A stretch of 64,000 nucleotides of DNA from Phyllobacterium sp. 21LDTY02-6 (GTDB lineage: Bacteria; Pseudomonadota; Alphaproteobacteria; Rhizobiales; Rhizobiaceae): NCBI RefSeq assembly GCF_023554255.2, contig NZ_JAMJWD020000002.1, forward strand, positions 551,435 through 615,434, read 5' to 3'. The number at the start of each line of letters is the position of its first letter. Position 1 is the stretch's first letter. Positions 9,164 to 27,415 of the stretch are shown here, one piece after another. A program made the translations under genes and the position numbers. The notes below the pieces were generated by a model. The model was not told the origin of the DNA, did not search any database, and was given only the letters and a program-made list of their open reading frames with translations.

Positions 9164-9258
9164 AAATGCAAAAAGGCCCGGTAGAACCGGGCCTTTTGAT
9201 CTTCGGACAACTGGAGCGGGAAATGGGATTCGAACCCACGACCCCAACCTTGGCAAGG
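9164..9258. repeat. attL: displaced tRNA-Gly 3' fragment plus terminator
   Basis: This is 95 bp matching 27321-27415 with five mismatches. Positions 9216-9258 correspond to the acceptor 3' strand, T arm, variable loop and part of the anticodon arm of tRNA-Gly on the minus strand. Identity stops at 9258 inside the anticodon stem. A 20-bp stretch (9239-9258) is identical in both copies and is the likely crossover zone. This copy cannot make a tRNA because the 5' half is missing. Confidence 0.88.
9171..9197 (-). terminator. Orphaned tRNA terminator in attL
   Basis: A 12-bp perfect stem AAAAGGCCCGGT / ACCGGGCCTTTT has a 3-nt loop, and read on the minus strand is followed by further T residues. 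It is the left copy of the tRNA-Gly terminator and would insulate holA from minus-strand transcription coming out of the element. Confidence 0.75.
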
Positions 9259-9413
9259 GAAACATTGGTTTGTTGCGCAAATTTGTCTTAGTGCTCAGAA
9301 TTACCACGATTTGCGCCACACAACGAATTTATTTTGGGCTACGTGTCTTGACTTATAGTGGGGAATTAAATGCATCTTAGTATTACTGTCTACCGCAGTG
9401 AATGCAGAATGCT

Positions 9414-9430
9414 GTAACCATGAAGTAACC
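9414..9430. promoter_or_regulatory. Paired GTAACC motif, left end (candidate integrase arm site)
   Basis: GTAACC occurs at 9414 and 9425, 11 bp apart (about one helical turn), in the non-coding left end of the element (9259-9544). The same doublet with the same 11-bp step occurs at the right end (27260, 27271), and an inverted doublet lies before int. The rest of this 286-bp non-coding stretch shows only AT-rich sequence and a loose inverted pair around TGCGCAAAT (about 9276) and ATTTGCGCC (about 9309). Confidence 0.5.
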
Positions 9431-9544
9431 GGATTTGTATCAGGCCGCGGTGCAGATAATTTATAACTTTGGAAACATGGAAACTAACAGTGTGTTGGCA
9501 CTTTTTCGGGGCATGGCACGCAAGAAGAATGCTGGTGAGGAATA

Positions 9545-11455
9545 ATGTCGAATTTGCAGGTTTCGGAAATCAATGTTCCGGGGGTTATCAAAAAACTGAA
9601 GTCGTCCGAATGGCTCTCGCCGTTATTTCAACGAGACTTCGTTTGGAGTAATGCCTCAGTAGTATCATTGGTCAACTCAATAATTGACGCCAGACCTGTT
9701 GGTATGATTACCCTCTGGGAACAAGAGGGTACGAGCGCATTACCGCTGGAGCCAATCTCAATTGCTGACGCACAGGCAGTTTCTGGAAAAAGCGTGGAGA
9801 AATATTTTGGAGATCCACAAGCTAGGCCGGGTCGCTACTATGCCATATTAGACGGGAGGCAACGCTCGACAGCACTTGCTCTAGCGTTTGGCGGACTGCG
9901 CGCATCTTCCGGTAAATTTCGTAATTCGGGGCGATATTTCTTAGATGTAACTGCCACAGAAAATACTGAGCGTGTAAAGTTCATATCTGAAAAAGACGTA
10001 ACTCGGCGCCAACTCAATATTTTAAAGATAGCCGTCTCGAATGGTCTTTTCCCCCTTGAGGTAGAAGATCCTGACGCGATTTTCGATCAATGGATGTCTT
10101 ATCTTCAGCATATACGTAATCCTGACTACTACAGCAACGGAGTATTGCCAGAAGAAGTGGAATTGCAGAGACGCAATCGTATTTTGCAGTCCGCATTCAA
10201 TGGCATTATAAAGACAAAAATTGCTCTCTATACGGTTCCTCCCACGTACGATCTTGCCGAAATCTGCGATATATTTGAGACTCTGAACACGACCGGGACA
10301 AAGGTTTCAACGGTAGATCTGATACATTCTAATATTTATAGCGACACGGTAAACGACTCTGTCGGTCCGATCCTTATTAGAGATAGCATCGATGAACTTG
10401 GTGAGTTGGATGGCGCAATTGGCTGGGCGTCCTCAAAAGAACGGCCAGAATTGATTGCGCAATTTGCAGCAGCTATGCATGTGGCGCTTGATTCCAAACC
10501 TGAAACACGACCTATCGGAACGAAGGAATATCGGATCTCAAGTATAAAATCTCAAGATCTTTTGGCTTTGCCAGCTAAACATTGGCGCAAAGTTTTTGAT
10601 GAAAGTTCAAAGTTTGCAGGATTTATGGGAGCATTTCAGCTAGCAGTGGCAGGCGGGCACTTTACAATGGCGCAATGCCCCTATCCCGCCGTTGCCTCCA
10701 TTTACGTAGCTTTGCGTTGGTTCTATGAATTCGATCGAGGTACCGATGTTGAGTGGAATCCGACCACTCACCTCGATCCAATATTTCGGGCGTTCTTTTG
10801 GCGAAATGCACTCGCAACAAGATATGACCAAGGCTTCCTTACCCAAATTGGGACCGATATTAGGTCGCTTAAAACGTTCTTAAGCGGTGTTAGGATCGGT
10901 GATAATTACGATGCCTGGAAGGCGAGCGCCAACGCTTGGCTCGACGAAAATGTGGCTAAATCATTGGACCGAGAATCACTTTTTGAAATTGTGACGGATG
11001 GAAGTGAGGCGGGGGCACTAAAAAGGGCTTCGGTACTGCTTTTATACTCAAGGGCCGGTTTGGACGCTATTGATGGCGCAACGCCCATTCAACACGGTTC
11101 GGGGCAATTGCAGCTACATCATATCTATCCAAAAGATTGGTGCGCAAACAACAACTTTGGAAAAGCTGGCGACTTCATTGACATGGGCACTGCTAAAAGA
11201 GACTACGTTGGATCAGCAGCGAACCTTATGCCAATGGCTCGTGCTTCGAACCTCTCTTGGCGGAAAAAACATCCCGCTCAGTTCATAAAAGAAGAATCGT
11301 TGAGTTTTGATTCTCGTGCCAACATATGGAACGCTTATTTCATCAACCGCGACTGCTTTGAGGCTTTGGAATCTCCAGATGTAGATCCGGGCAAATTCTG
11401 GGAGCTAAGGGGCCAAGCGATAGCTACAGAGATTGCGCACCGAATGATGGTCTAG
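9545..11455 (+). CDS. DUF262/DUF1524 fusion protein, GmrSD-like type IV restriction candidate
   Basis: A 636-residue protein. The N-terminal DUF262 (ParB-like) domain shows FQRDFVW at 28-34 and the NTP-associated D-G-R-Q-R at 103-107 within YAILDGRQRSTAL. The C-terminal DUF1524 HNH-type nuclease shows LQLHHIYPKDW with H525/H526 and P529, then the distal N-L-M-P-M motif. In the GmrSD/BrxU family this domain pair cuts modified (for example glucosylated) phage DNA in an NTP-dependent way; that activity is inferred here. The ribosome binding site is GAGGAA just before the ATG. The gene ends 3 nt before the AlbA_2 gene, so the two form one operon. It is AT-richer than the core genome. Confidence 0.85.
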   Translation: MSNLQVSEINVPGVIKKLKSSEWLSPLFQRDFVWSNASVVSLVNSIIDARPVGMITLWEQEGTSALPLEPISIADAQAVSGKSVEKYFGDPQARPGRYYAILDGRQRSTALALAFGGLRASSGKFRNSGRYFLDVTATENTERVKFISEKDVTRRQLNILKIAVSNGLFPLEVEDPDAIFDQWMSYLQHIRNPDYYSNGVLPEEVELQRRNRILQSAFNGIIKTKIALYTVPPTYDLAEICDIFETLNTTGTKVSTVDLIHSNIYSDTVNDSVGPILIRDSIDELGELDGAIGWASSKERPELIAQFAAAMHVALDSKPETRPIGTKEYRISSIKSQDLLALPAKHWRKVFDESSKFAGFMGAFQLAVAGGHFTMAQCPYPAVASIYVALRWFYEFDRGTDVEWNPTTHLDPIFRAFFWRNALATRYDQGFLTQIGTDIRSLKTFLSGVRIGDNYDAWKASANAWLDENVAKSLDRESLFEIVTDGSEAGALKRASVLLLYSRAGLDAIDGATPIQHGSGQLQLHHIYPKDWCANNNFGKAGDFIDMGTAKRDYVGSAANLMPMARASNLSWRKKHPAQFIKEESLSFDSRANIWNAYFINRDCFEALESPDVDPGKFWELRGQAIATEIAHRMMV

Positions 11456-11458
11456 GTC

Positions 11459-12235
11459 ATGTCTAGCGAAATTCCGCCCCCAATTTCTCGGACCATTGTG
11501 GCTGCGCTGACTCAACCAGTTCAAACGAATTTTGCGACATTGATTACGGAACTTGGTTGGAAAGAAAGAGGAGTACTAGAAGCTCTCCTATGTCTCCGCG
11601 ATATTCTTCAGGCTTGGCAGATTGAGTGCGAGCCGCCCATTGGAGAACTCGGCCTGGAGGACGACCGTATTATAAAGCGTAGTTCTGCTGATGACCCATT
11701 GCAGCTCGTTATGGCGGACATCGCCCTCGGTGAAGGCAACACCATCGAATGGAAGGAAACTATCCTTCTCGATGTAAAGAAGCATGCGATCGGCGGAAAA
11801 CCGCTTTCGGAATGCTATTCGGAGAGAGTTCTGCTCTCTTCATTGAAAACCATTGCAGCTTTTCTCAATTCAACTGGTGGAACGCTGCTCGTAGGGGTAA
11901 ATGATATAGGGGAAATAACTGGAATCGAGAAAGAATTTTCGTTAATCCCAGGTGCCAAAAAATTGGATTTCGACGAGTGGGAATTGTACTTGCGTACGTT
12001 AATTGAGAAATATTTTCACAATGGGAGAAGCATAACTTCATCCATTCAAGTAACGAGGGCGCAGCACGCTAACGGTATTGTAGCGAGAATAGTAGTCGGA
12101 CCGCGTCGGGGGCTATGTATAATGAAAAGTACAGAACTCGGAGATCAATTATTTATTCGCGCTGGAAACAGAACACTTTCAGTTGGTTTAACTGATCTTG
12201 AAGAATATTTTTCACTTTCAAAATCGTTCGTTTAA
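11459..12235 (+). CDS. AlbA_2 (Schlafen-like) domain protein
   Basis: A 258-residue protein. The first 85 residues match nothing I recognise. From about residue 90 the AlbA_2/Schlafen core is clear: E92-x4-E97-x-K99 (EGNTIEWKE), then FLNSTGGTLLVGVND (135-149). In Schlafen nucleases paired acidic residues of this kind cleave RNA, while in other AlbA_2 proteins the domain only binds nucleic acid; which applies is not decidable here. It follows the DUF262 gene with a 3-nt gap and ends at a strong terminator, so the pair is a two-gene unit. The combination is a plausible phage-defence system. Confidence 0.8.
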   Translation: MSSEIPPPISRTIVAALTQPVQTNFATLITELGWKERGVLEALLCLRDILQAWQIECEPPIGELGLEDDRIIKRSSADDPLQLVMADIALGEGNTIEWKETILLDVKKHAIGGKPLSECYSERVLLSSLKTIAAFLNSTGGTLLVGVNDIGEITGIEKEFSLIPGAKKLDFDEWELYLRTLIEKYFHNGRSITSSIQVTRAQHANGIVARIVVGPRRGLCIMKSTELGDQLFIRAGNRTLSVGLTDLEEYFSLSKSFV

Positions 12236-12242
12236 AACTTTT

Positions 12243-12277
12243 GACCAATATCCGGCAACAAGTGCCGGATATTGGTC
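12243..12277. terminator. Strong bidirectional terminator between the AlbA_2 and DUF1508 genes
   Basis: A 15-bp perfect inverted repeat (GACCAATATCCGGCA / TGCCGGATATTGGTC) with a 5-nt loop begins 7 nt after the AlbA_2 stop. It sits between two convergent genes and has moderate T content on both sides. Confidence 0.75.
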
Positions 12278-12284
12278 TTCTAAG

Positions 12285-12452
12285 TTAAGTACGATCGATC
12301 ACAGAGGCCGTGGGTATAATCCGTTTGGCGGCGCTCACACCACCTTCTGCGGATTGTTTCGTTGTATAAACTTCCGAATGGCAGATAGTTTCCCCATTAG
12401 AGGCCTTAAGACGCCAATAGTAACCGCCTGTCGCGCGCATAATTTCAAACAT
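12285..12452 (-). CDS. DUF1508 (YegP-like) small protein
   Basis: A 55-residue protein that begins MFEIMRATGGYYWRLKASNG and continues with ETICHSEVYTTKQSAEGGV. This matches the DUF1508 pattern (hydrophobic start, Y-x-W-R-L-K-A-x-N-G, then S-E-x-Y-x-x-K). The domain is usually present as one or two copies of about 50 residues; this is a single copy. A strong AAGGAGG lies about 10 nt upstream of the ATG. The function of YegP-like proteins is not established. It faces the AlbA_2 gene across the shared terminator. Confidence 0.8.
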   Translation of the reverse strand: MFEIMRATGGYYWRLKASNGETICHSEVYTTKQSAEGGVSAAKRIIPTASVIDRT

Positions 12453-12589
12453 TTGTAGTTGCCCTCCTTGGGCATTTTGAGTCAGCCCCGCCCGAAGCGG
12501 CGAGGCATTGACGTTTGAGAGGGGGGCAGCTAGAAACGTATTTGTTCAAGATACGACTAGCGGGCTTCGGCCCCTTTGGAAACCGGGTG

Positions 12590-12841
12590 TTAGCTCAGCC
12601 GGTTTTCAAGCCATGTCGCCTTCGGGGTCATATATGGCCCCTTAGGCGGAAGTTCGCCGGGACTCGCCGGCGGTACTTCCGGAAACCGCGTCCCACCCTT
12701 TACTTCAGCAATGCGGCCCTGGTTGAGGCCGAAGAACGCTGCGATATCGTGATGGCGGTCGCCCCGCTCGATCATTCCCCGAATGAGCGCCGCATCGCGC
12801 TCGGTGATAGTGAGGCCGCTCGGCCTCGCACGTGATCCCAT
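12590..12841 (-). CDS. Small HTH-like protein, possible regulator of the hsd operon
   Basis: An 83-residue basic protein. The central segment ITERDAALIRGMIERG, followed by HHDIAAFFGLNQGRIAEVKGG, reads as a helix-turn-helix of the homeodomain-like kind. The tail is proline-rich. A good AGGAGA precedes the ATG. It is divergent from the type I restriction operon, whose promoter has operator-like palindromes, so a regulatory role is suggested by position only. The stretch 12453-12589 holds nothing recognisable. The overlapping plus-strand frame has no family signature. Confidence 0.65.
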   Translation of the reverse strand: MGSRARPSGLTITERDAALIRGMIERGDRHHDIAAFFGLNQGRIAEVKGGTRFPEVPPASPGELPPKGPYMTPKATWLENRLS

Positions 12842-12936
12842 ATACTTCTCCTGTGTTTTCAGCGTCAGACTCTGGCCTAACCCCTCCTATATGAGGGAGA
12901 GTCTCCCGATAGTCAAGAGCAAATCTAATTATTTAG

Positions 12937-12956
12937 AACCGTAGCCTATTACGGTT
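12937..12956. promoter_or_regulatory. Operator-like palindrome A upstream of the hsd operon
   Basis: AACCGTA-N6-TACGGTT is a perfect 7-bp inverted repeat between the divergent HTH-like gene and the hsd operon. It shares the CGTA half-site core with palindrome B 37 bp further on. Confidence 0.5.
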
Positions 12957-12966
12957 TTATTATTAC

Positions 12967-12995
12967 TTGACTTCGTAGCGTGCTACGGGTATCTA
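12967..12995 (+). promoter_or_regulatory. hsd operon promoter with overlapping palindrome B
   Basis: TTGACT (12967-12972) and TATCTA (12990-12995) are separated by 17 bp, a good sigma-70-type promoter. The palindrome CGTAGC-GT-GCTACG (12974-12987) fills the spacer, the classic place for a repressor operator. The first ATG of the operon is at 13002, only about 6 nt after the -10 element, so the transcript would be leaderless. Confidence 0.55.
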
Positions 12996-13001
12996 CGATA
13001 T

Positions 13002-13634
13002 ATGGAAAAGCAAATGGGAATGGTAGCGTTAAGCCGCTCCGGCACACGCCTTCAGGATGTCGCCGAGGTTTTTGCGGGTGTGGGGGTATCGCGCGAGGAA
13101 ACGATCGTTCGTCCGGGGGGCAGGCTGCGGGTTATCGGCGTGCGTGACCTTCAAGATGGTGCGGTTGCCGCGCGAGAAGCACTGGACACCGCAGGCTTTT
13201 CGTCCCCCTCCAAGGCCATGACCTATGCGGTTCAAGCTGACGACGTGCTCGTCACCGGACGCGGTACACTGTTGAAATTCGGCCTCGTTGGGGTCGAGAC
13301 AGTAGGGGCAATCGCCAGCGCAAACATCATCGTCGTGCGACCCGGCCCCGATGTGGCGGGCGGTGCCCTGTTTGCGATCCTGTCGAGCGATGTGTTTCGC
13401 CCAAAGATAGAGGTCCTTCGGAGGGGCGCGACGACGCTGCTGTCCCTGTCACCGAAAGACCTTGCAAAGCTCGAAATAAATCTGCCGTCGATGAACGAAC
13501 AGGAGCGCATTGCCGTCCTCGTTAAGGAAGCGCAAGTGGCTTACCGCACCGCCCTAGAGGCTGCCGAAATCCGCCGCTCACTCGGGCGGCGTCTAATTGA
13601 CGCTCGCCTGTTTGGCGACAACCAGAACCATTGA
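13002..13634 (+). CDS. Half-size type I restriction specificity (HsdS-like) protein
   Basis: A 210-residue protein, half the length of a normal HsdS. It has one target-recognition-type domain (ADDVLVTGRG region around residues 78-87) followed by one conserved helix: LSPKDLAKLEINLPSMNEQERIAVL. A full HsdS would have two of each. It lies 7 nt before hsdM, ahead of the full-length hsdS in the same operon. Half-S proteins can dimerise to recognise symmetric sites, or may compete with the full subunit. No SD is seen; ATGs at 13002, 13014 and 13020 are possible starts, and the first would be nearly leaderless. Confidence 0.75.
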   Translation: MEKQMGMVALSRSGTRLQDVAEVFAGVGVSREETIVRPGGRLRVIGVRDLQDGAVAAREALDTAGFSSPSKAMTYAVQADDVLVTGRGTLLKFGLVGVETVGAIASANIIVVRPGPDVAGGALFAILSSDVFRPKIEVLRRGATTLLSLSPKDLAKLEINLPSMNEQERIAVLVKEAQVAYRTALEAAEIRRSLGRRLIDARLFGDNQNH

Positions 13635-13641
13635 GGGAAAC

Positions 13642-15168
13642 ATGGCCAAGCTCACACGTATCGAACTGGAAAATCATCTTTGGAAATCCGCCGACATCCT
13701 GCGCGGCTCCATCGATAGTTCCGACTATAAGATCTACATCTTTGGCTTTCTGTTCCTGAAGCGGCTTTCTGATCGGTTCGAGGAAGAAGCCAAGGAGGCT
13801 GTCCGTCAGGGCCTGCCGGAAGATGTCGCCTACAGCGACCCCGACGAGCATGAGTTCTTTCTGGTTGAACGTGCGCGTTGGTCGTCGATCAAAAAGCTGA
13901 CGACAGGCATTGGCGACCACCTCAATAAAGCATGCGCCGCGATTGAAGACGCCAATCCCTCGATTGAAGGCGTACTGGCCAATATCGACTTCAACTCCGA
14001 ATCGCGCCTTGGCGATGCCAAGAACCGAGAAGGCGTTCTGTCGCGTCTGATCGACCACTTCTCGCGCATCGACCTGTCCAACGCCTCTCTGTCCGAGCCG
14101 GATATGCTTGGTCGCGCCTATGAATACCTCATCGACAAATTTGCCGACGACGCAGGCAAGAAGGGCGGCGAGTTCTACACCCCCCACCATGTCGTGCGGC
14201 TGATTGTCGAGTTGCTAGACCCCAAGCCCGGCATGCGTATCAGCGACCCCACCTGTGGTTCAGGCGGCATGCTGGTCCAGGTCGCGGAGCATGTGGCGAA
14301 GCTCGAAGGTAAGCGGCTAGGCGAAGCGCTCAACATCACGCTGCATGGGCAGGAAAAGAACCTTGGCACATGGGCTATCGCCAAGATGAACCTGCTCCTG
14401 CACGGGCTTCGGGATGCGCGAATCGAAAAGGGCGATACGATCCGCAATCCGCGCTTGCTCGATCAGGACGGCAACCTCTTTCTTTATGATCGGGTGATCG
14501 CCAACCCGCCCTTCTCGCTGGATCGCTGGGGTGCAGAGGACGTTTCAGGCGACACCGAGAAGAAGGGCCATAACCGCTTCATCTATGGCATCCCACCCAA
14601 AAACATGGGTGATCTAGCCTTCGTGCAGCACATGGTTGCGACGCTCAATGCCAACGGTATTTGCGGCGTGGTGATGCCGCATGGAGTGCTGTTTCGTGGC
14701 TCAGGCGACGGGCGCATTCGCGAGGCGATGCTGAACGCCGGCCTATTCGAGGCGATTATCGGTTTGCCGGAAAACCTCTTCGCCGGCACTGGCATTCCAG
14801 CGACCGTCTTGATCCTCAACAAGGCGAAGGCACCTGAGCGCAAGGGCAAAGTACTGTTCATTCACGGCGCGAAGGAATTCGGGGAGCGGCCCAAAAAAAA
14901 CATCTTGGGCGAGGGCAACATCACGCGCATCGTCAATGCCTTCGAAGCCTGGAAGGATGAGGACCGCTTTTGCCGCATCGTCGATATGAAGGAGATCGAA
15001 GAGAATGACTTCAACCTCAATATCTCACGCTACATCGACACGCTTGAACCCGAAAAGCCGATCGACGTGAAAGCTGAGCTTAGCAAACTCTGGGCCGCCG
15101 AGAAGGCACGCGATGAAGCCGCCGCGCGCATGAATGCCCTTCTCAAGGAGTTGGGTTATGTCGGCTGA
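13642..15168 (+). CDS. hsdM: Type I restriction-modification system methyltransferase subunit HsdM
   Basis: A 508-residue adenine-N6 methyltransferase subunit. It has the HsdM N-terminal helical domain (ELENHLWKSADILRGSIDSSDYK), the SAM-binding motif I DPTCGSGG at 202-209 and catalytic motif IV NPPF at 288-291. It methylates the recognition site chosen by HsdS and is also required for restriction by HsdR. The start at 13642 follows GAGGGAAAC. The 3' end overlaps hsdS by 11 nt. The longer upstream frame from 13597 runs into the preceding gene and is not used. Confidence 0.96.
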   Translation: MAKLTRIELENHLWKSADILRGSIDSSDYKIYIFGFLFLKRLSDRFEEEAKEAVRQGLPEDVAYSDPDEHEFFLVERARWSSIKKLTTGIGDHLNKACAAIEDANPSIEGVLANIDFNSESRLGDAKNREGVLSRLIDHFSRIDLSNASLSEPDMLGRAYEYLIDKFADDAGKKGGEFYTPHHVVRLIVELLDPKPGMRISDPTCGSGGMLVQVAEHVAKLEGKRLGEALNITLHGQEKNLGTWAIAKMNLLLHGLRDARIEKGDTIRNPRLLDQDGNLFLYDRVIANPPFSLDRWGAEDVSGDTEKKGHNRFIYGIPPKNMGDLAFVQHMVATLNANGICGVVMPHGVLFRGSGDGRIREAMLNAGLFEAIIGLPENLFAGTGIPATVLILNKAKAPERKGKVLFIHGAKEFGERPKKNILGEGNITRIVNAFEAWKDEDRFCRIVDMKEIEENDFNLNISRYIDTLEPEKPIDVKAELSKLWAAEKARDEAAARMNALLKELGYVG

Positions 15169-16459
15169 AGTGCCTGAGGGGTGGCGGGAAGGGCGGCTGA
15201 AGGACCTTTGCGAAAATGTCGAGCGGCGGCTGGGAACTGGCGAAAAATTAGAACTTCTGAGCGTCGCAAAACGTGGCGTGGTTCCTCAATCGCAGACCTA
15301 CGACAAGGAGATCTCGAGCGAGGACGTTTCCCGCTACCGAATTATAGAGCCCGGTGAGTTCGGGTTAGCTCCGATGGCGCTCTATTATGGTGCTATCGGT
15401 CGGTATCGCGGCGCCACTCCTGGGATCATAAGTCCCGCATATAACGTATTTCGTCATACCATGAACGCGGATCCTGACTACTTGGAAACTCTCATCCGTA
15501 TGCCGCGCACGATAGCGAGATACGAAGCGTTGAGCCAAGGCGGCAATTTGGAAGGCAAGCGCAAGCTGACCCCTTATGATGCCTTCGAGACCGTCCAAAT
15601 AGCTATTCCCCCGCTTCCCGAACAGCGCGCGATTGCCAACGTCTTGGGCTCGGTTGAGGAGGTTATCGCCAATACCGAGGCCTTGATTGCAGCGCTGGTC
15701 GACACCAAGCACGCAACCATGCGGGACTTGCTAACGCGTGGCGTTCAGCGCGAGAAGGCCTCAATGAAGCCGTTACCGGCGCGCTGGGTGCTCGGGCGGA
15801 TCGCCGAGGGCATCACGCATATCCCGGCAGATTGGGACCTCGTGACACTGACGAAGGTTGCTAAGCTCGAAAGCGGTCATACACCTGACCGCAAGGAGTC
15901 AACCTATTGGGCCGGCAACATTCCTTGGATCTCGCTTCAAGATGCCGATGCACTCACCAAAGTGACCATCTCGGAGACCGCAGAAACCATTGGACCCTTG
16001 GGCTTAGCCAACTCATCCGCACGCATGCTTCCGGCAGGAACTGTTGTGCTTCAGCGAACTGCAAACGTTGGCCTTGCTTCTGTAATGGGTCGCGAGATGT
16101 GTACCAGTCAGCATTTTGCGAACTGGATTTGCGGAAGCAAGCTCGATCCATACTACCTTCAACAGGTATTCCGGCACATGTCGCGCGAGTGGCAGCGCCT
16201 TGTTGCGGGGAGCGTCCTGCCTGACATCTACATGGGAACCTTCAAGGCACTGCAAATTCTTCTCCCACCATTGGCGGAGCAGAAGAAAATTGGCGAGGTC
16301 GGCGTCGCCTTCGACCTGCGGATTGAAGAAGAAAGAAGCACCCTGACCGTCCTAATTGAGAACCGCAAGGCGCTTGCGCAAGAACTTCTCTCGGGTCGGA
16401 TCCGCCTTCCAGAAAGCATCATTGCTCAGCATCGCGACAAACGCGGACAAGCTGCATGA
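15158..16459 (+). CDS. hsdS: Type I restriction-modification system specificity subunit HsdS (full length)
   Basis: A 433-residue specificity subunit with two target recognition domains, each ending in a conserved helical spacer: IAIPPLPEQRAIANVLGSVEE, then LQILLPPLAEQKKIGEVGVAF. The segment HIPADWDLVTLTKVAKLESG opens the second half. The start at 15158 is preceded by AAGGAG at 7 nt and overlaps the end of hsdM. The 3' end overlaps hsdR by 4 nt (ATGA). It shares the operon with a separate half-size S protein at 13002. Confidence 0.94.
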   Translation: MSAEVPEGWREGRLKDLCENVERRLGTGEKLELLSVAKRGVVPQSQTYDKEISSEDVSRYRIIEPGEFGLAPMALYYGAIGRYRGATPGIISPAYNVFRHTMNADPDYLETLIRMPRTIARYEALSQGGNLEGKRKLTPYDAFETVQIAIPPLPEQRAIANVLGSVEEVIANTEALIAALVDTKHATMRDLLTRGVQREKASMKPLPARWVLGRIAEGITHIPADWDLVTLTKVAKLESGHTPDRKESTYWAGNIPWISLQDADALTKVTISETAETIGPLGLANSSARMLPAGTVVLQRTANVGLASVMGREMCTSQHFANWICGSKLDPYYLQQVFRHMSREWQRLVAGSVLPDIYMGTFKALQILLPPLAEQKKIGEVGVAFDLRIEEERSTLTVLIENRKALAQELLSGRIRLPESIIAQHRDKRGQAA

Positions 16460-20965: not shown

Positions 20966-20989
20966 AACCTCCTTGCAATCACGGAGGTT
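20966..20989 (+). promoter_or_regulatory. Hairpin that sequesters the AlpA-like gene's ribosome binding site
   Basis: AACCTCC (20966-20972) pairs perfectly with GGAGGTT (20983-20989) across a 10-nt loop. The 3' arm contains the GGAGG Shine-Dalgarno of the gene starting at 20993. Folding of the mRNA leader would hide the site, suggesting translational control. Confidence 0.55.
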
Positions 20990-20992
20990 TAA

Positions 20993-21181
20993 ATGACTTC
21001 AGAAAAACTAATCACATTAAAGCAGGCTGCCGAAGCCTTGGGCCTCCCCGCTTTCAAGATATATCGGGCTGCGAAAAACGGAATACTCCCAACCTACACT
21101 ATCTATAATTCGCGCCGTCTCGTTCGCTTGTCGGAGGTCATCTCGACAATTAACTCCTCCCGCCAAGGAGGTGCAGAATGA
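20993..21181 (+). CDS. AlpA/excisionase-like HTH protein
   Basis: A 62-residue single-domain protein. The sequence LITLKQAAEALGLPAFKIYRAAKNG, followed by RRLVRLSEVI, is a MerR/HTH_17-type winged helix of the kind found in AlpA activators and excisionases. In P4-like satellites and genomic islands such proteins switch on excision or replication genes. GGAGG lies 5-6 nt before the ATG and is buried in a hairpin. The stop overlaps the next small ORF (ATGA). It stands at the head of the replication module. Confidence 0.8.
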   Translation: MTSEKLITLKQAAEALGLPAFKIYRAAKNGILPTYTIYNSRRLVRLSEVISTINSSRQGGAE

Positions 21182-21354
21182 AGCGTGATCACGCAGTCGC
21201 TCCTAATTTAGATGATCCTGTCGAGTATCTAGCAGTACCGCGATGGCTTATCGTCAAAGAGGGTCGCGGCAAAAGCGCCGCAAATGATCCGAAACTGATC
21301 GTACTACAAGCTCCGCGCTCTACAACCATCATATTCAGGTTTGATAATGGTTGA
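21178..21354 (+). CDS. Small coupled hypothetical protein (58 aa)
   Basis: This 58-residue frame starts MKRDHAVAPNLDDPVEYL at an ATG overlapping the stop of the AlpA-like gene (ATGA), so translation is probably coupled. The product has a hydrophobic, beta-like C-terminus (KLIVLQAPRSTTIIFRF). I do not recognise a family. The following 135 bp to the helicase start contains a 6-bp GC hairpin (GGTGGG-ACG-CCCACC, 21389-21403) and no other gene. Confidence 0.5.
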   Translation: MKRDHAVAPNLDDPVEYLAVPRWLIVKEGRGKSAANDPKLIVLQAPRSTTIIFRFDNG

Positions 21355-21489
21355 GCTCTTCGAGCCACCTTCCCGTGCGTGATAGCTAGGTGGGACGCCC
21401 ACCGTTTAATCTTCCAAACTTCAATAACCGAAGCCCCACCTGCACCACTACGCAGGCTGGACAGGCTTGGCTAGAATCTGGACGGACAC

Positions 21490-23685
21490 ATGAGAACAAA
21501 ACTTTTAACTGAAAAAGACCCCATCGATAATACTGACGAAAATTTGGCAATTGAATTTGCCCTGCGGTTTCACCCTGCCCATGCCTTACACCTCGTTGCG
21601 ATGATGCCAGACCGTAAGTTGGAGGCGAAAACATTCCCGCTGGATAAATTGGAAAGAGCTCGGGATTGGCTCAAACATCGCATCAAGAAGGCCAATCTTT
21701 ATTTCCATCCAAATAACGTTGAGATTGACGTAAAGGACCGAAAGGCAAAGAAGGCAGAGATCGTTTCCGCCAGCACTCTACATGTCGATGTAGATGATGC
21801 CAGCATTGAGTCATTAGAACGTTTGAGGAGTTATATACCAGCCCCAACGGTAATCTTGGGTTCAGGGGGCGGCTTCCATGCCTATTGGAGGTTAACGCAG
21901 CCTTCATTTGACCTTGATCTGGTGGAGCAGGCGAACATTCAAATTGCCCAGACTGTAGGGGGTGATCATTGCCATAACGTTGATCGGATAATGCGTTTAC
22001 CGGGCACAATCAATCTGCCTAATGCAAAGAAGTTGGCATCGGGTAGGGTCGCCACGTTGGCAACAGTGATTGAAAGCGATTGGTCGCGGACTTATAGCCT
22101 CGATGATTTTCCCATCGGAAATGAGCCTAGCCCAGCTGGATCTAAGATATCGGTTGTAACAAGCACGGACATTGCGGAAGTGTCCATCGATAGTATTGGC
22201 AAGACTGTATCCGAAGCGACTTTTGCGATTATTAAGCAGGGTGATGACCCGCAGAAACCCCGTAGAGGTCAGAATCCTCGATTTCGATCGCGAAGCGAAG
22301 CCGTATTTCGCGTGGCGTGTGACCTCGCGCGAGACGGTCTTGGTGAGGTGGAGATTGCTGGAATATTGATTAACCCAGCCTACGGCATTTCAGCATCGAT
22401 ATTGGAGAAGAAGAATCCTAAAGCATACGCTTTGAAACAGGCCAGAGCGGCCATAGCCGCTAGCGAGGGAGGCTGGCCGGACGTAGAGAAGTCCGGAAAG
22501 CCCCGACCAACGATGCGTAATACCATTGTTGCTCTCCAACGATTGGAGCTAGCGTTCGCACATGATCTATTCCGACACCGCAAGATCATTAATGGGACGC
22601 AGTTGGAAGAGCACGCTGGTGAGATAAGTGACGACGCATGCAGTAGGCTCCGGGGAATAGTAATTGATCAGTTTGATTTCGACCCTCGGGCAGACAATGT
22701 TCGCGATGCCGTGACCCAACTTTGCCTTGAGAATTCGCTCCATCCGATACGACAGATGTTAGATGATTTGATATGGGACGGTGCTCCACGTGTGGATGGG
22801 TGGCTGTCAGTGTATCTTGGTGCGGAGGACACAAAGCTAAATGTAGCCATCGGAGCAGCAATGCTGATCGCCGCAGTAAGGCGAGTGCGCGAACCCGGCG
22901 CAAAATACGATACCATCCCAATTCTTGAAGGAAAACAGGGGACGGGAAAATCGACCGCGTTGCAGGTCCTCGCAGGTGAAGGTTTTCACTCAGACAATGA
23001 GATACTGACGCTCGACACTAAAGCTCAAATGGAAGCGATGGAAGGCGTGTGGATCTATGAACTGAGCGAAATATCGGGACTTAGGAAAGCAGAAATCGAG
23101 CGAACAAAAGCATTTGCTTCACGGCAGGTCGACCGTGCCCGAATGTCCTACGGAAGATTCTCCGAAAGCAGGGGCCGTCAAGCAATCTTTGTTGGAACAA
23201 CAAACGACGACAAGTATTTGCGGGACAGAACCGGGAATCGGCGTTTCCTGCCTGTGAAAACGGGACAGATTGATCTCAATGCTCTGGTACGGGACCGCGA
23301 TCAGCTTTGGGCGGAGGCAGCAAATAGAGAGGCTGTTGGTGAGAGCATTACGCTGCCATCTGATCTGTGGAAGTCAGCTGCTGCTGAGCAGGAGGAACGT
23401 TTAGAGGACGACCCATGGCTCGAAAAACTTGCCAGTATTCGAGGCGTAGCCTTTGGCGATGAAGTCAGAGCTTTTACGTACGAACTTCTGGGCATAACTC
23501 TCCATATCGAGCTCGAACGCCAACATAACGGTCACACCAAACGACTCTCGGGTCTAATGCGTTCCCTTGGATGGGAGCCAGGTAAGTTCAAGGTGGCGGG
23601 GCAAACGTTACGCGGTTTCCGGCGGATGAAAGCTGACGACCACATTAACGATCCCGATTTCTCTGGAGAGAATAGAAAGTTCTAG
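21490..23685 (+). CDS. Primase-helicase replication protein (RepB-like Prim-Pol plus VapE-type helicase)
   Basis: A 731-residue protein. The N-terminal part carries archaeo-eukaryotic primase signatures: LHVDVDD (about residue 95), GSGGGFHAYW (about 121-130) and RIMRLPGTINLPN. The C-terminal part is a VapE/superfamily-3-type helicase with Walker A EGKQGTGKS (480-488), IYELSEISGL (Walker B region) and the GTTNDDKYLRDRTGNRRFLPV segment. Proteins of this build replicate phage satellites and some plasmids. It lies downstream of the AlpA-like switch and upstream of a repeat-rich non-coding segment and int. It is intact in length. Confidence 0.85.
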   Translation: MRTKLLTEKDPIDNTDENLAIEFALRFHPAHALHLVAMMPDRKLEAKTFPLDKLERARDWLKHRIKKANLYFHPNNVEIDVKDRKAKKAEIVSASTLHVDVDDASIESLERLRSYIPAPTVILGSGGGFHAYWRLTQPSFDLDLVEQANIQIAQTVGGDHCHNVDRIMRLPGTINLPNAKKLASGRVATLATVIESDWSRTYSLDDFPIGNEPSPAGSKISVVTSTDIAEVSIDSIGKTVSEATFAIIKQGDDPQKPRRGQNPRFRSRSEAVFRVACDLARDGLGEVEIAGILINPAYGISASILEKKNPKAYALKQARAAIAASEGGWPDVEKSGKPRPTMRNTIVALQRLELAFAHDLFRHRKIINGTQLEEHAGEISDDACSRLRGIVIDQFDFDPRADNVRDAVTQLCLENSLHPIRQMLDDLIWDGAPRVDGWLSVYLGAEDTKLNVAIGAAMLIAAVRRVREPGAKYDTIPILEGKQGTGKSTALQVLAGEGFHSDNEILTLDTKAQMEAMEGVWIYELSEISGLRKAEIERTKAFASRQVDRARMSYGRFSESRGRQAIFVGTTNDDKYLRDRTGNRRFLPVKTGQIDLNALVRDRDQLWAEAANREAVGESITLPSDLWKSAAAEQEERLEDDPWLEKLASIRGVAFGDEVRAFTYELLGITLHIELERQHNGHTKRLSGLMRSLGWEPGKFKVAGQTLRGFRRMKADDHINDPDFSGENRKF

Positions 23686-23687
23686 TA

Positions 23688-23819
23688 GGTGGCGGTGGCG
23701 GTAGTGGCATGTCCTAGGGAGCTTGGGGGAGTGTAGTGTGCAGTGGTATTGAAATTCTTTGCCCTGTACAGCAGTGGCTGTAGCTCAACATGACGGGTGC
23801 CACCGCCGCCACTGCCACC
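23688..23819. repeat. Long-range inverted repeat of GGTGGC units, possible replication origin
   Basis: Left arm 23688-23709 and right arm 23798-23819 (22 nt each) are inverted copies with 3 mismatches, built from GGTGGC/AGTGGC units. An 88-bp spacer between them includes two further GTGG copies. The segment begins 2 nt after the primase-helicase stop. Iterated units next to a replication gene are typical of satellite origins, but a very long terminator stem is also possible. The remaining non-coding stretch to 24016 holds the GGTTAC doublet described separately. Confidence 0.45.
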
Positions 23820-23907
23820 CAGCTACGATTTCAACCCCAGTGAGGTATGGATCCGGAATGCGGCTGAGCCCGTCGTGACGGGGTTCCGAATGGCTTCAGA
23901 TGTTTGT

Positions 23908-23925
23908 GGTTACCCGGCTGGTTAC
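23908..23925. promoter_or_regulatory. Inverted GTAACC doublet upstream of int
   Basis: GGTTAC occurs at 23908 and 23920, 12 bp apart; on the minus strand this reads GTAACC twice, including CTGTAACCA exactly as at the left end (9412-9420). It lies about 90 bp before int and may be an integrase arm site or autoregulatory site. Confidence 0.45.
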
Positions 23926-24016
23926 AGCGAGGACCGCTAGCAGCTCATTCCGATAAATTGTGTGCGAATTTTCGCAGTGTTTTTTTTGGTTGTGATTTCA
24001 ACCGATGGAGAATGCA

Positions 24017-25252
24017 ATGAGTATCAATGTTAATCTAACCAAGCGAACGCGCAAACGCACCCTGCAGGATGGCAGTCTAGTGCGCCAACTTCGTTATGTG
24101 GTGAATTACAAATGTCCCAAAACCGGTCAGCGCAAACAGGAATTCTTTGAGCGGCAAAAGGATGCGCAGGCACGTCAAAGTGCTCTCACGGTTTCGATTA
24201 GTGCGGGTTCGTATGTGGACCAACGGACTGTACCAACAGTAAATGAAGCGGTTGATGATTGGCTCGCCGACAGGAAACGCCACGTCAAGGAAAGTACTCA
24301 TACCGGCTATTCCATTGTGGTGGCCCACATTAAGGGCCCTTATCTCGTCGGAACGCAGCGAGAGAAGGCGCAATACACTGCGACCGGAGTGAAACCCAGA
24401 GGCACGCATTTGCTGCCTATGTTGGGGAAGATCAAGCTCAACGAACTGACGACCGCAGATATCCGTGGATGGCACCGGCAGCTTCAGGAACATTCTGGGA
24501 CCTATACAGCTAACAGGGCGAAGTCCCATTTTAAAGCGGTCCTAGCCATGGCCGAGGAAGATCATGGTGTTCGCGCTCCCTCCATGCCAACCGGTTTGGG
24601 TCGGGGCAAGCCAAGGGTAAAGAAGGCAATCCTGACGACCGAGCAGATTGCAAAACTAGTCGAGGCGGCAAAGCACGACAAGGAACGAGGCATTTATTGC
24701 GTGTTTCCATTTCTTGTCGGGACGCGCCCAAGCGAACAGTTTGGACTTCTTTGGGAAGATGTCGATTTCGAAGCAAATGTCATCCGTATTCGGCGCATGC
24801 AAGAGCGGGACGGCAGCCTGACAGCCATGACCAAGACGGAGGCCGGGACGCGCGAAGTGCCGATGGGCAAGACACTGCGCACGATGTTGTTGGAGTGGAG
24901 AGCGAGGTGTCCCCGCAAGGGAAAGGAATTATATCGTGTTTTTCCGGGTCCCGGCAGGGTTCAGGCTTGGCCAAAGCCCCGCATTGGTGGCGGCGGGGCC
25001 CTGGTCTACCAAAACTTCCGCAAGCGTTACTGGGTGCCGTTCTTCACTGAACAAGGCTTTCCCTATGTCACGCCCCACAGTGCCAGACATTCGTTTATAT
25101 CAACGATGCAAGCTCAAGGCATTGAAGTCGGCCTAGTCGCACGACTTGCTGGTCACGCCAATGCCACGGTGACGCTTGGTCATTACACACAAGCCGTGCG
25201 TGGTGGTCAAGTGGCGGTTGATGCTCTGGAACGGGCCTACAGCGGTCATTAA
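24017..25252 (+). CDS. int: Tyrosine recombinase/integrase of the element
   Basis: A 411-residue phage-type integrase. It has an N-terminal arm-binding domain, a core-binding SAM-like domain (about 70-190) and a catalytic domain with R237 (GTRPSEQ), H354-x-x-R357 (HSARH), H380 (AGHAN) and the nucleophile Y390 (LGHY). All expected catalytic residues are present. GGAG lies 7 nt before the ATG at 24017, which is preferred over the ATG at 24005. It lies about 2 kb inside the attR end beside the restored tRNA-Gly, the usual arrangement for tRNA-targeting elements. Confidence 0.95.
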   Translation: MSINVNLTKRTRKRTLQDGSLVRQLRYVVNYKCPKTGQRKQEFFERQKDAQARQSALTVSISAGSYVDQRTVPTVNEAVDDWLADRKRHVKESTHTGYSIVVAHIKGPYLVGTQREKAQYTATGVKPRGTHLLPMLGKIKLNELTTADIRGWHRQLQEHSGTYTANRAKSHFKAVLAMAEEDHGVRAPSMPTGLGRGKPRVKKAILTTEQIAKLVEAAKHDKERGIYCVFPFLVGTRPSEQFGLLWEDVDFEANVIRIRRMQERDGSLTAMTKTEAGTREVPMGKTLRTMLLEWRARCPRKGKELYRVFPGPGRVQAWPKPRIGGGGALVYQNFRKRYWVPFFTEQGFPYVTPHSARHSFISTMQAQGIEVGLVARLAGHANATVTLGHYTQAVRGGQVAVDALERAYSGH

Positions 25253-25287
25253 GCCAATCCCTAACTTCGCAAGAAAGGAAAAAACAA

Positions 25288-25593
25288 ATGGTGCAATCTC
25301 ATTCATTCCCCGTTGGAAAGCTTGTGTTCAAGAGCAAAGCCGACTTCATTCGTAGGTGTCGGGAGGCGATCCGTAGAGCCGCCGTTGATACTGTCATGAC
25401 CGGTGAAGATGAAGGTTTGGCCGCAGCAATACTCAATGCGCGTTTAGACAAAGTATCTGAACTTAGGGGCCGTTTAGTGGTGCGATACTGGCGAAAGGCC
25501 CACAAATTCAATACAGTTTCATTCTCTGCTGAGCTGAACGATGGCGAATTTCTAGACTTCAGTTTTATGAAGCTCACTTTGCCTTTACGCTAG
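25288..25593 (+). CDS. Small hypothetical protein, weakly DUF3223-like
   Basis: A 101-residue basic protein with a good upstream AAAGGA. The pattern FKSKADFIRRCREAI, then GEDEGLAAAIL, then FLDFSFMKL resembles DUF3223, a small domain with a terminal DFSY-type motif found in phage and plasmid proteins; the match is by eye and weak. It is 35 nt downstream of int and co-directional. The function is unknown. Confidence 0.55.
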   Translation: MVQSHSFPVGKLVFKSKADFIRRCREAIRRAAVDTVMTGEDEGLAAAILNARLDKVSELRGRLVVRYWRKAHKFNTVSFSAELNDGEFLDFSFMKLTLPLR

Positions 25594-25758
25594 AGTGGAG
25601 TTCGGGCGGTCCAGCCTGCTGCCCTGGCTGGGTGCCGTCCTGCCCCGCCGCGGTACTACGGAACGGCACGGTGCTAGCTGGCGGCCATGTGGCCGCGCCG
25701 CCACCATGCGCGCCGGGAGTACCACTCCCGTAGGCAGTAGCCAATTCAGATGAAATCC
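25594..25758. other. GC-rich, hairpin-dense non-coding island
   Basis: This 165-bp stretch is far richer in GC than its flanks. It contains CGGCCA-TG-TGGCCG (25682-25695) and CGGGAGT-ACC-ACTCCCG (25714-25730), both perfect. No frame looks coding. It could be a structured RNA or a strong termination region between the integrase module and the right-end cargo. Confidence 0.4.
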
Positions 25759-25944
25759 CTATTTCCCGTGTGCTGGAAAAACGATGATCTCAGCGATTGT
25801 ATATCGCGCATTCTCGTAGATGCCGTACTCCTCGAGTGCTGTCTCGAGCTCATCATCGTCAATGGGTAAGAAGTGCGGAATATCCATCAGGTTAATGATT
25901 TGGGCCTGTCGGGTCGTGATATCCGTAATTAATAACGCTCGCAT
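25759..25944 (-). CDS. Small acidic hypothetical protein
   Basis: A 61-residue acidic protein (MRALLITDITTRQAQIINLM, then an IDDDELETALEEYG segment). AGAAGG lies 7 nt upstream of this ATG; an in-frame ATG two codons earlier (25950) has poorer spacing. No family is recognised. It is plausible but unproven. The 274 bp to the next gene (25945-26218) contain nothing clear beyond a 5-bp GGAGG/CCTCC stem near 26058-26080. Confidence 0.4.
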   Translation of the reverse strand: MRALLITDITTRQAQIINLMDIPHFLPIDDDELETALEEYGIYENARYTIAEIIVFPAHGK

Positions 25945-26218
25945 TGGCATGCCTTCTGTTAGATCGCTATTAAAGCACGAGGAGCGGAATGTGGCAATTA
26001 TATCAATAATATCATAGGTTTAATACCAAAATGGGTGTTGTAAGTACTGTCTTCTTCCGGAGGGGGTTAGTGCGACCTCCCCCTATCTTACCGAACGCGG
26101 GCGATTGCAACGGGACCCGGCGAGGTCTGCGATCAATCCGAAATGAATACGCAGTACGCCTTCGAAGTGCTTTAGGCAGAATATTTCTTGCACTATGCTG
26201 ATGTAGGCAAAGATTAGC

Positions 26219-27151
26219 TTATCCAGAGCTGCTGGCCAGAATATTCAGAAGTTCGTAGTGATCGCCTTTGTCCTCGGCAACATATTCCTCGTCGGCACCC
26301 AATACGCCTACGGGCAACTTATTCTTCGCTAATGGATTATGAACTACTACGACTGGATACTGATCTCCGCAGGCCGCATTAACGCCAGCGGGCGTTCCCA
26401 AAATTGCACTGACTGACACGTAATCAGGATTGAGAAAGTTATCGGTTGGTACCTGAGCCCCGTTTGGTTTTGGAATTGTTGGGCGATGCTGAGAGCTTTG
26501 CCGTATGACGGTACCGGTTTCTCGGTCGATCACGATTTCAATGGGACCAACAGGAAGTGCCGATTCAACTGCAAATGGAAACTGGGAAATACCCCTGTGC
26601 AATAGGTCGATACCATGCCCCAACCGGCACGCACTTATTGCAATGACATACGGATCTGTTGGTCCAACTATACCTCTTTCCAAATAGCCCTTTTTCCTAA
26701 TTTCTGAATTAGTTAATTGATCGAATCTTACTGATCCCGTGAGCTTCTCCTTCTTATCCTTCAACGCGGATGTCCAACGAAGAAGCATTGCTTCGTGGGG
26801 AACGCTCCCGGTATGAAATCCTTCGGAAGGATTTATCCATTGTTCCGGAATTCCTGCCGGGGAAGGACATGTCGCTTCGATCCATATAGTCAGACCGTCG
26901 AGTTTGGACTTAAAGTCGGGGCCCTCGTCCTTCGAACTTAAATCATGACCTTTATTTTTTAGGTGTTTCGCCAGGATCATTTCCCAAATGTAGGGATAGA
27001 AATGATCGTCTGCCCCGTCCACGAAATCTTGGTCAAAAGTGCTGTCTTTTAAACCCCATGAATTATATTCCAAGTAGAGGGAGGTTAGCCCATCTCTGAC
27101 GGGTGGATTGTCCGAATACCGTTCGCTCAAATATTTCTCGACACCAGCCAT
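26219..27151 (-). CDS. Right-end cargo protein, possible PD-(D/E)XK-type nuclease
   Basis: A 310-residue soluble protein, AT-rich in codons. The N-terminal half has E57 in a helix (YIWEMILAKHLKNKGHD), then D79 in GPDF and E92 in TIWIEATCP. This order (E, D, E-x-x) resembles a PD-(D/E)XK core in which the usual lysine is replaced. The C-terminal half (SAILGTPAGVNAACGD, VVVVHNPLAKNKLP) is unrecognised. It is transcribed inward from the attR end. Accessory genes at this place in islands are often defence genes, but none is assigned. Confidence 0.6.
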   Translation of the reverse strand: MAGVEKYLSERYSDNPPVRDGLTSLYLEYNSWGLKDSTFDQDFVDGADDHFYPYIWEMILAKHLKNKGHDLSSKDEGPDFKSKLDGLTIWIEATCPSPAGIPEQWINPSEGFHTGSVPHEAMLLRWTSALKDKKEKLTGSVRFDQLTNSEIRKKGYLERGIVGPTDPYVIAISACRLGHGIDLLHRGISQFPFAVESALPVGPIEIVIDRETGTVIRQSSQHRPTIPKPNGAQVPTDNFLNPDYVSVSAILGTPAGVNAACGDQYPVVVVHNPLAKNKLPVGVLGADEEYVAEDKGDHYELLNILASSSG

Positions 27152-27259
27152 CGTAACCTCACAGCTTATGATTGCGATCTATATGGATACTGAACATACA
27201 TTAATTCTTCTGCATCGCATGGGATTGTGCGATGAAAATATCGAGCCGTTAACACGCTG

Positions 27260-27276
27260 GTAACCGGATAGTAACC
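27260..27276. promoter_or_regulatory. Paired GTAACC motif, right end (candidate integrase arm site)
   Basis: GTAACC at 27260 and 27271, 11 bp apart, lies 45 bp inside attR. It has the same motif, orientation and spacing as the left-end pair at 9414/9425. Confidence 0.5.
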
Positions 27277-27320
27277 GAAATTCTGAATGCGCTTGGTGAG
27301 GGTCAGGGGAAAATGCTCTA

Positions 27321-27415
27321 AAATGCAAAAAGGCCCGGTAAAACCGGGCCTTTTGATCTTCGAACAACTGGAGCGGGAGAAGGGATTCGAACCCTCGACC
27401 CCAACCTTGGCAAGG
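27321..27415. repeat. attR: tRNA-Gly 3' part plus terminator supplied by the element
   Basis: This is the right copy of the 95-bp repeat. Here the element-borne 3' half joins the native 5' half (27416-27443) to give a complete tRNA-Gly, so insertion did not destroy the tRNA. Confidence 0.88.
27328..27354 (-). terminator. tRNA-Gly terminator
   Basis: A 12-bp perfect stem AAAAGGCCCGGT / ACCGGGCCTTTT has a 3-nt loop. On the minus strand it is followed by T residues, 19 nt after the tRNA 3' end. Confidence 0.88.

Follow-up and report, generated by a model that had tools for sequence, protein, structure and literature searches.

Islands of several described kinds resemble the element reported here, which occupies positions 9161-27415 (~18 kb) of a 64-kb stretch of Phyllobacterium sp. 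21LDTY02-6 (the window; contig NZ_JAMJWD020000002.1, positions 551,435 to 615,434). The Gram-negative phage-inducible chromosomal islands (PICIs) of the EcCICFT073 type have, like the island, int, alpA and primase-helicase genes, accessory genes and an integrase without near phage relatives; AlpA is the activator in EcCICFT073, and the PICI origin lies right after the replicase gene with two iteron sets (PMC6092414). The phage-inducible chromosomal minimalist islands (PICMIs), of which PICMI115 requires int, alpA, iolg and prim, have integration at fis as their hallmark; AlpA is needed for excision of PICMI115, as is iolg, which overlaps int and occurs in 21 of 35 subfamilies (PMC10803314). 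No packaging-redirecting homologue was reported in PICMI115, so a recognisable packaging gene is not needed. The same paper counts, in complete genomes, 135 elements with an int-alpA-prim core, of which 67 belong to Vibrionaceae, so that such cores elsewhere are already on record (PMC10803314). Finally, the I55-like tmRNA islands of Pseudomonas share with the present island a tyrosine integrase, AlpA, flanking repeats, defence systems and the lack of recognised transfer genes (PMC12595487). We consider it moderately probable that the Phyllobacterium element is a satellite-like integrative island of the PICI/PICMI kind, with AlpA-driven excision, self-coded replication and transfer borrowed from a helper phage. 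Its integration, the empty sites in congeners, the core genes, the family to which it belongs and the linkage of origin repeats with replicase type could be read from the sequence. Coordinates below refer to the window, and L- and G- labels denote the compared loci and genomes of relatives and congeners.

The island sits in a tRNA-Gly(GCC) gene between two direct repeats, and its boundaries are defined by the following features.

9161 to 9258, no strand: distal attachment repeat, 98 nt, 94% identical to 27318-27415, putatively the displaced 3' part of the host tRNA-Gly gene with its terminator
27318 to 27415, no strand: proximal attachment repeat, inside and downstream of the tRNA-Gly gene, found by direct-repeat search
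27369 to 27443, minus strand: tRNA-Gly(GCC), the target gene (ARAGORN; Rfam tRNA, 69.7 bits)

The right copy corresponds to nt 29-75 of the intact tRNA-Gly(GCC) plus 51 nt downstream, including the terminator, and the pair was the only direct-repeat family reported between 6000 and 31000 (seed 14, length 25). An earlier reading of the letters alone (the original prediction) had placed an island in tRNA-Gly between 95-bp repeats starting at 9164, which are these same repeats, trimmed. It had named an ordinary tandem tRNA duplication as a refuting case; this was rejected, because ARAGORN detected one tRNA in the whole window, the tRNA-Gly(GCC), and only the partial segment described above is repeated. 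A scan with Rfam at E ≤ 1 over 9000-27600 gave nothing beyond the tRNA, save one sub-threshold tmRNA fragment. The two copies differ at 6 of 98 positions, in such a way that the T-stem of the tRNA stays paired; both T-stem forms are present among congeners (14/19 versus 5/19), and these do not settle which copy is the host's own. The G+C content of the island was 0.526 (0.495 without the restriction-modification [RM] block), compared to 0.588 and 0.610 in the flanks.

The comparison with related genomes that the original prediction had proposed revealed an empty site in 17 of 19 congeners, in which holA-like and ybbN-like genes flank this tRNA within a locus of ~3.2 kb (in one of them, L022, holA is ~1.4 kb away). 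Sequence on the holA side of the congeners reaches up to the distal repeat. The exceptions were L028, with no holA in the stretch, and L026, where another island (L057, congener G016) was found. L057 is a different island of ~14 kb in the same tRNA-Gly, with an integrase showing 25% identity over 284 amino acids (aa) to that of the window and with genes for an AAA_25 ATPase, a minor-tail-like protein and a DprA-like protein (DNA_processg_A), in addition to a sub-cut-off tail-repeat match. Together, the empty sites and the different island in the same tRNA indicate that integration is real and that the site has been used more than once. Across 20 genomes of the genus, the replicase was present at high identity only in the window's own genome (a match in G017 had 38% identity), and with 17 of 19 congeners empty, arrival looks recent.

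The core of the island comprises the features below, where the 65 stretches are the window and the 64 related loci described in the following paragraph.

20291 to 20881 (frame opens at 20156), plus strand: orf241, also c8, upstream of AlpA, function without assignment; family in 8/65 stretches
20993 to 21181, plus strand: predicted AlpA-type helix-turn-helix (HTH) regulator/excisionase (Pfam HTH_17, 5.4e-06; phrog_66, 2.7e-05); family in 48/65 stretches
21490 to 23685, plus strand: replicase, a RepB-type primase/VapE-type helicase (Pfam, 1.3e-67 and 2.2e-09; Walker A GKQGTGKST)
23688 to 23819, no strand: candidate replication origin with facing GGTGGC-type repeat arrays, arms 23688-23709 and 23798-23819, spacer 88 nt (inverted repeat p 0.016 versus 60 shuffles)
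23908 to 23925, plus strand: candidate operator-like GGTTAC-N6-GGTTAC, upstream of int (sole window match at ≤1 mismatch, 0.03 expected)
24005 to 25252, conserved start probably 24017, plus strand: tyrosine integrase (Pfam PF00589, 3.4e-17; motifs; family alignment)

The AlpA-like HTH protein and the primase/VapE-type helicase of the original prediction were both recovered by the profile searches. The reading frames of integrase and replicase are uninterrupted and retain their motifs, and R241, K277, H358, R361, H384 and Y394 (positions derived from motif starts), which we take to be the catalytic residues, are all there in the integrase, as predicted.

To place the island, a profile from an alignment of 8 integrases was scanned against 84,980 species genomes, yielding 64 further loci, nearly all in Alphaproteobacteria, with host genera including Rhizobium, Shinella, Mesorhizobium, Methylobacterium, Roseibium and Aliiroseovarius. 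Non-alphaproteobacterial or unclear hosts were those of L093 (a Marinagarivorans bin), L115 and L118 (Micavibrio, which the tree tool placed in Bdellovibrionota) and L081 ('bacterium'). Within the order, an integrase match at E ≤ 1e-30 was found in 9 of 297 genomes, the window's own included; the integrase nearest to that of the window (L059, 76% identity) is also at a tRNA-Gly and accompanies the other replicase type. Besides AlpA, the 65 stretches contained a VapE-type replicase in 21 cases and a Prim-Pol type in 35, L092 and L094 matching both, and misses are partly due to contig ends. The usual order is c5 or c8 open reading frame (ORF), AlpA, replicase, Int. In many relatives, Int is followed by c7 and c3 on the opposite strand and a small HTH_3 gene (matches in 17, 25 and 37 of the 65 stretches, respectively, some HTH_3 lying elsewhere).

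A tRNA was found in 34 of the 64 loci, always on the downstream side of Int. It is tRNA-Gly in 20 loci, Arg in 5, and Thr and Ala in 4 each, and one locus has both Met and Glu. Within the stretches analysed, its 3' end was repeated upstream of Int in 12 of the 34, which delimits elements of 7.8-20.4 kb. The repeat edge fell at tRNA nt 27-33 in 11 of these 12 (nt 44 in L060) and at nt 29 in the window, suggesting a crossover near the anticodon. On the integrase tree, the tRNA-Gly label required 11 changes, compared to a shuffled mean of 17.0 (0/500 as low), and all tRNA labels, with 'none' as one label, 20 compared to 29.2 (0/200 as low). We also noted two family integrases close together on one contig in Shinella sp. 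SUS2 (L066/L112) and in Aliiroseovarius marinus (L101/L104), which is what repeated integration at a single site would lead one to expect.

The region after the replicase gene was first flagged by its repeats and by an all-against-all comparison of intergenes. Directly after the replicase stop codon the window reads GGTGGCGGTGGCGGTAGTGGCA, followed 88 nt on by a near reverse complement. A replicase was present in 53 loci, of which 48 were tested and 5 excluded (intergene of 0 or >700 nt, with limits set by the approximate Int start). For 36 of the 48 loci, the best inverted repeat in the first 280 nt was significant at p ≤ 0.05 when compared with 60 dinucleotide shuffles. A position rule (arm 1 beginning at most ~50 nt from the replicase stop, with a spacer of 65-150 nt) held for 36/48 loci compared to 81/480 shuffled sequences, and both conditions together for 29/48. 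The arms consist of short repeats that vary by locus, i.e., GTGGC or GTAGC, GGACG, GTGACG, and GTGTAGG. The facing arrays after the replicase gene are probably the replication origin.

The repeat type was linked to the replicase type. At least four copies of GTRGC were present in the first 200 nt of 16/16 VapE loci and 3/32 Prim-Pol loci, while the int-side block, used as a control, gave 0/16 and 0/32. When trained on one half of the loci, a motif separated the remaining half (p 0.011), with 2/7 VapE loci scoring low and 2/17 Prim-Pol loci scoring high. Replicase type changed 14 times on the integrase tree, and in 14 independent pairs the repeat type was concordant with the replicase type in ~12 and opposed in none (median p 0.0005). 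On a tree of the 28 Prim-Pol replicases, GGACG required 2 changes (0/500 shuffles as low) and GTGACG 7 (60/500), so that the first label fits the tree well and the second only weakly; 6 loci match no repeat label.

Comparison of loci with similar integrases placed the divergence on the replicase side of the intergene. Nine pairs with different replicases, chosen by hand, showed 35-54% identity over the first 150 nt and 60-96% over the last 170 nt. All 7 classified pairs with integrase identity of at least 87% (L065/L068, L112/L074, L079/L070, L079/L072, L070/L072, L094/L095, and L061/L060) differ in replicase class, in a sample of one genome per species with 4 loci unclassified; in the 5 of them with integrase identity of at least 90%, identity was 39-54% over the first 150 nt and 91-96% over the last 170 nt. 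Among all pairs with integrase identity of at least 70%, which are not independent and exclude the 4 loci without a class, the median identity of the replicase-side 150 nt was 0.57 for 50 same-class pairs and 0.48 for 117 different-class pairs, and that of the int-side 170 nt was 0.60 and 0.61, respectively. The repeat type changes with the replicase type, which suggests that the replicase protein is swapped together with its origin, in the manner of a cartridge. The simplest reading seems to be that the replicase and its own origin are exchanged as a unit, beside an int control region that stays with int.

The candidate operator is part of this int-side region. A looser GGTTAC pattern occurs at most 300 nt upstream of Int in 32/63 loci; the window contains a further instance of it at 29347, which is not in the island. 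The idea that the GGTTAC pair is an operator shared with alpA was discarded, as no match was found near alpA.

More broadly, these loci may form an unnamed, mainly alphaproteobacterial satellite family with a plug-in replicon, in which a RepB-primase/VapE and two Prim-Pol lineages, each with its own repeat-array origin, are exchanged between integrase-tRNA backbones, the GGTTAC int-side block stays with int, and cargo slots on both sides swap defence cassettes. The exchange looks fast, and switching would evade interference with replication by phage, host or siblings. We regard the chances of this broader picture as evenly balanced. An open-access literature search, outside which most subscription papers fall, returned no named alphaproteobacterial family and no such replicon exchange. 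If the island is indeed a satellite, PICI/PICMI-kind satellites would extend widely into Alphaproteobacteria as carriers of defence systems, and the repeated exchange of replicase and origin would offer a natural experiment, open to direct testing, that shows which repeats each replicase reads and why satellites change replicon.

As the original prediction had stated, no structural or conjugation genes were seen: none of the island ORFs scanned (Pfam, PADLOC, and PHROG, not every ORF against every library) matched structural, terminase, relaxase or conjugation families. The virion structural and terminase genes that would define a prophage were thus lacking among these ORFs, and the Pfam and PHROG scans gave no relaxase or type IV secretion gene that would define a conjugative or mobilizable element; an origin of transfer (oriT) was not searched for. 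P4-like satellites carry psu, delta and sid genes. No match so named was obtained in the scans of the island ORFs, for which no dedicated models were run. For 12 complete sister elements, PHROG gave no structural or packaging family among the families listed, many of which are without known function. The first of these scans covered 110 of 182 ORFs, with 25 of 78 families listed, and excluded core genes, ORFs of <70 aa and 20 ORFs of ≥480 aa; the re-scan covered 83 of these 110 ORFs in two sets, with 25 of 34 and 18 of 18 families listed. The GGTTAC pattern was seen in 20 viral stretches, and by tblastn none of L126-L181 encodes Int or any other window protein except the replicase. The host genome has one phage portal match (G000:C7:23065-24045, L125), which could belong to a prophage or to a gene transfer agent and might point to a helper.

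Set against PICIs, the island has AlpA and a primase-helicase with two repeat sets immediately 3', whereas its spacer is not AT-rich, unlike the region flanked by the PICI iterons. It also differs in having cargo on both sides of the core, with int inside, and no recognised capsid or terS gene. PICIs are, moreover, induced by phage, packaged at high frequency and inhibitory to their helper. The PICI attachment site is described as never used by prophages; here, the congener island L057, with its tail-like proteins, occupies the same tRNA. PICI genes are described as exclusive to the family; here, the integrase alone was compared, with no relative in viral contigs and with matches in 457 of 50,697 phage and 143 of 72,556 plasmid records, all at <60% identity. 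Membership of the PICIs is, on these features, supported only in part. The PICMIs share the co-located minimal core of int, alpA and prim, the absence of a recognised packaging or capsid gene, and defence cargo. They differ by integrating at fis rather than a tRNA, by a mean size of 6.7 kb compared to 7.8-20.4 kb, and by their Vibrionaceae hosts, while the order alpA-prim-ori-int and the two replicase types are features of the present family. Compared with the PICMI iolg, the DUF3223-like ORF of the window starts 35 nt past int, without overlap. Judged by its site (tRNA-Gly, not fis), the island is not a PICMI. The I55-like islands differ in their tmRNA site and in that the present island has a replicase and a candidate origin; RadC, YqaJ and Gp2-like genes, frequent there, were not named in Pfam scans of the window island.

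By analogy with the work on PICIs and PICMIs, from which we take the AlpA trigger, the use of the origin, transport by phage and the benefit of the cargo, the island could operate as follows. The integrase would recombine the 3' part of tRNA-Gly; AlpA would switch on or assist excision; the island's own primase-helicase would copy the excised circle from the facing arrays after its gene; copies would most probably exit the cell in helper-phage particles; and the defence cargo would repay its upkeep by blocking other phages.

Several observations count against the satellite reading and its exchange of replicons. The inverted-repeat test did not reach p ≤ 0.05 in 12/48 loci, and in 31 of 36 loci following the position rule the spacer was richer in G+C than the intergene taken as a whole; in the window itself, G+C was 0.52 for the spacer and 0.54 for the intergene. 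The GTRGC motif was selected after inspection of the data, the GTGACG label is scattered within Prim-Pol, and the contrast across the full set of pairs with integrase identity of 70% or more, although in the expected direction, appears modest except in the nearest pairs. The search of the 65 stretches did not reveal, in the window, the c7-c3-HTH_3 module that many relatives have, so control may be impaired. The original prediction had called the element a phage satellite or minimal island. What held was a site-specific island with a satellite-type core (int, alpA, and primase-helicase) and defence cargo, to which the core in 64 further loci and the candidate origin can be added; status as a phage satellite fared less well. 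No packaging, terminase, capsid-redirecting or interference gene was recognised in the island, viral contigs contained no relative of the integrase and gave a best replicase match of 39%, and among the phage and plasmid matches listed for the integrase, identity was ~26% or less.

The lack of a recognised hijacking gene would also suit a genomic island without a dedicated helper, moved occasionally by phages in the way that jumbo phages move Pseudomonas tmRNA islands, and the integrase, AlpA and defence cargo do resemble those of I55-like islands (PMC12595487). We find this unlikely, given that an element that is merely carried along would have no need to retain a replicase and a conserved candidate origin, as the island does. 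Carriage of an integrative mobilizable element by a conjugative helper plasmid, or by an integrative and conjugative element, through a cis-acting oriT has a precedent in replicating mobilizable islands, of which SGI1 is reportedly one. It appears quite improbable here, no relaxase or conjugation family having been matched by the island ORFs scanned, although oriT was not among the features sought. Least of all would we expect a relic, i.e., a formerly mobile island now fixed for defence, to which the 6/98 mismatches between the repeats and the missing c7-c3-HTH_3 module could point. The open frames and intact motifs of Int and replicase, the occurrence of the replicase at high identity in 1/20 genomes of the genus and the empty site in 17/19 congeners make it very improbable.

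A further alternative concerns the facing repeats only, which could be a terminator, a structured RNA or a site for self-repression of the replicase. Their location directly after the stop codon, their GC-rich arms and the spacer that is not AT-rich would fit such a role. On the other side, the arms lie 73-145 nt apart in the 36 position-rule loci, the window lacks a long T-run after arm 2, replicase type predicts repeat type across the 14 independent pairs, and near integrases with different replicases diverge in sequence on the replicase side, so that we hold this alternative distinctly unlikely and retain a replication origin as the preferred reading.

The cargo of the island lies on both sides of the core, with the GmrSD/AlbA_2 and RM genes to its left and the DUF3223/HamC2-like and PD-T7-5-like genes to its right.

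9545 to 11455, plus strand: GmrSD_N/DUF262 protein with a C-terminal HHIYP (HNH-like) motif (Pfam PF03235, 1.4e-20; PADLOC HEC-05, 1.5e-18; DGRQR, HHIYP)
11459 to 12235, plus strand: SLFN_AlbA_2 protein, adjoining the GmrSD gene (Pfam PF04326, 7.2e-11)
12590 to 12841, minus strand: small HTH-like ORF, first in the RM cassette, 74-93% identical in L071, L079 and L094 beside the same RM genes (HTH judged by eye)
13002 to 13634, plus strand: half-length HsdS, 210 aa (Pfam Methylase_S, 8.8e-06; PADLOC Specificity_I, 7.1e-16), conserved in L071, L079 and L094
13642 to 15168 (ORF opens at 13597), plus strand: HsdM (Pfam N6_Mtase, 7.1e-97; NPPF)
15134 to 16459, plus strand: full-length HsdS (Pfam, 1.7e-22; PADLOC, 1.5e-69)
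16456 to 19425, plus strand: HsdR (Pfam HSDR_N, 8.9e-43, and SWI2_SNF2, 2.4e-80; GSGKS, DEAH, IECK)
19422 to 20162, plus strand: YgjP-like metallopeptidase, last gene of the RM cassette (Pfam, 6.7e-57; HEACH), in the same place in L094
25288 to 25593, plus strand: DUF3223/HamC2-like small protein (PADLOC HamC2, 3.6e-04, weak), with homologues in L072 and L090
26219 to 27151, minus strand: PD-T7-5-like protein, probable defence gene (PADLOC, 8.6e-10; phrog_8571, 1.5e-17)

The predicted cargo of a DUF262-AlbA_2 pair and a type I RM system agreed with these profile matches (GmrSD_N, SLFN_AlbA_2, and HsdR/M/S), and the possible nuclease of that prediction can be described, from its profile match only, as PD-T7-5-like. 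PD-T7-5 is a defence gene found experimentally. GmrSD and AlbA_2 as a recurrent pair were left unsupported: the AlbA_2 protein had one other match, a weak one, among 337 genomes of the class, and neither protein was found by tblastn in the 64 relatives.

The RM cassette (12590-20162; HTH-like ORF on the opposite strand, half-length HsdS, HsdM, full-length HsdS, HsdR, and YgjP) recurs in L071, L079 and L094, where its orientation is opposite to Int, and in L094 it lies on the other side of Int than in the window. YgjP was seen in L094, the stretches of L071 and L079 ending within HsdR. The recurrence with another orientation and side indicates that this cargo moves between family members apart from the core. 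Identity to the window in these three loci was 77-95% for HsdM, 62-89% for the half-length HsdS and 35-65% for the full-length HsdS; HsdM appears to be kept while the full-length HsdS varies, as though specificity were being changed. Among 10 hand-picked proteins of sister elements, 7 matched PADLOC models (PDC-M28B, PDC-M28C, two AriA/GajA-like, PDC-S37, HerA, and ZacB-like, with AriA and ZacB partial), and c3, c7 and a 499-aa ORF of L112 were without a match. The conserved cargo slots would be places in which to seek unknown defence genes.

Upstream of AlpA, many relatives have c5 (e.g., L112:6367-7128), found in 23 stretches, where the window has the unrelated c8. Treating orf241 (c8) and c5 as a single family was rejected (hhalign probability of 0.2%). 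The AlphaFold2 model of orf241 was poor (mean predicted local distance difference test [pLDDT] score of 62.5). That of c5 was fairly confident and mostly helical (pLDDT 84.8), with no match in the PDB at E ≤ 0.001. The module in which c7-c3 on the minus strand face HTH_3 lies between Int and the tRNA (e.g., L112:11797-13475). The L112 copies of c3 and c7 had no Pfam or PADLOC match, and c3 is strongly conserved, with a mean column identity of 47% over 24 sequences.

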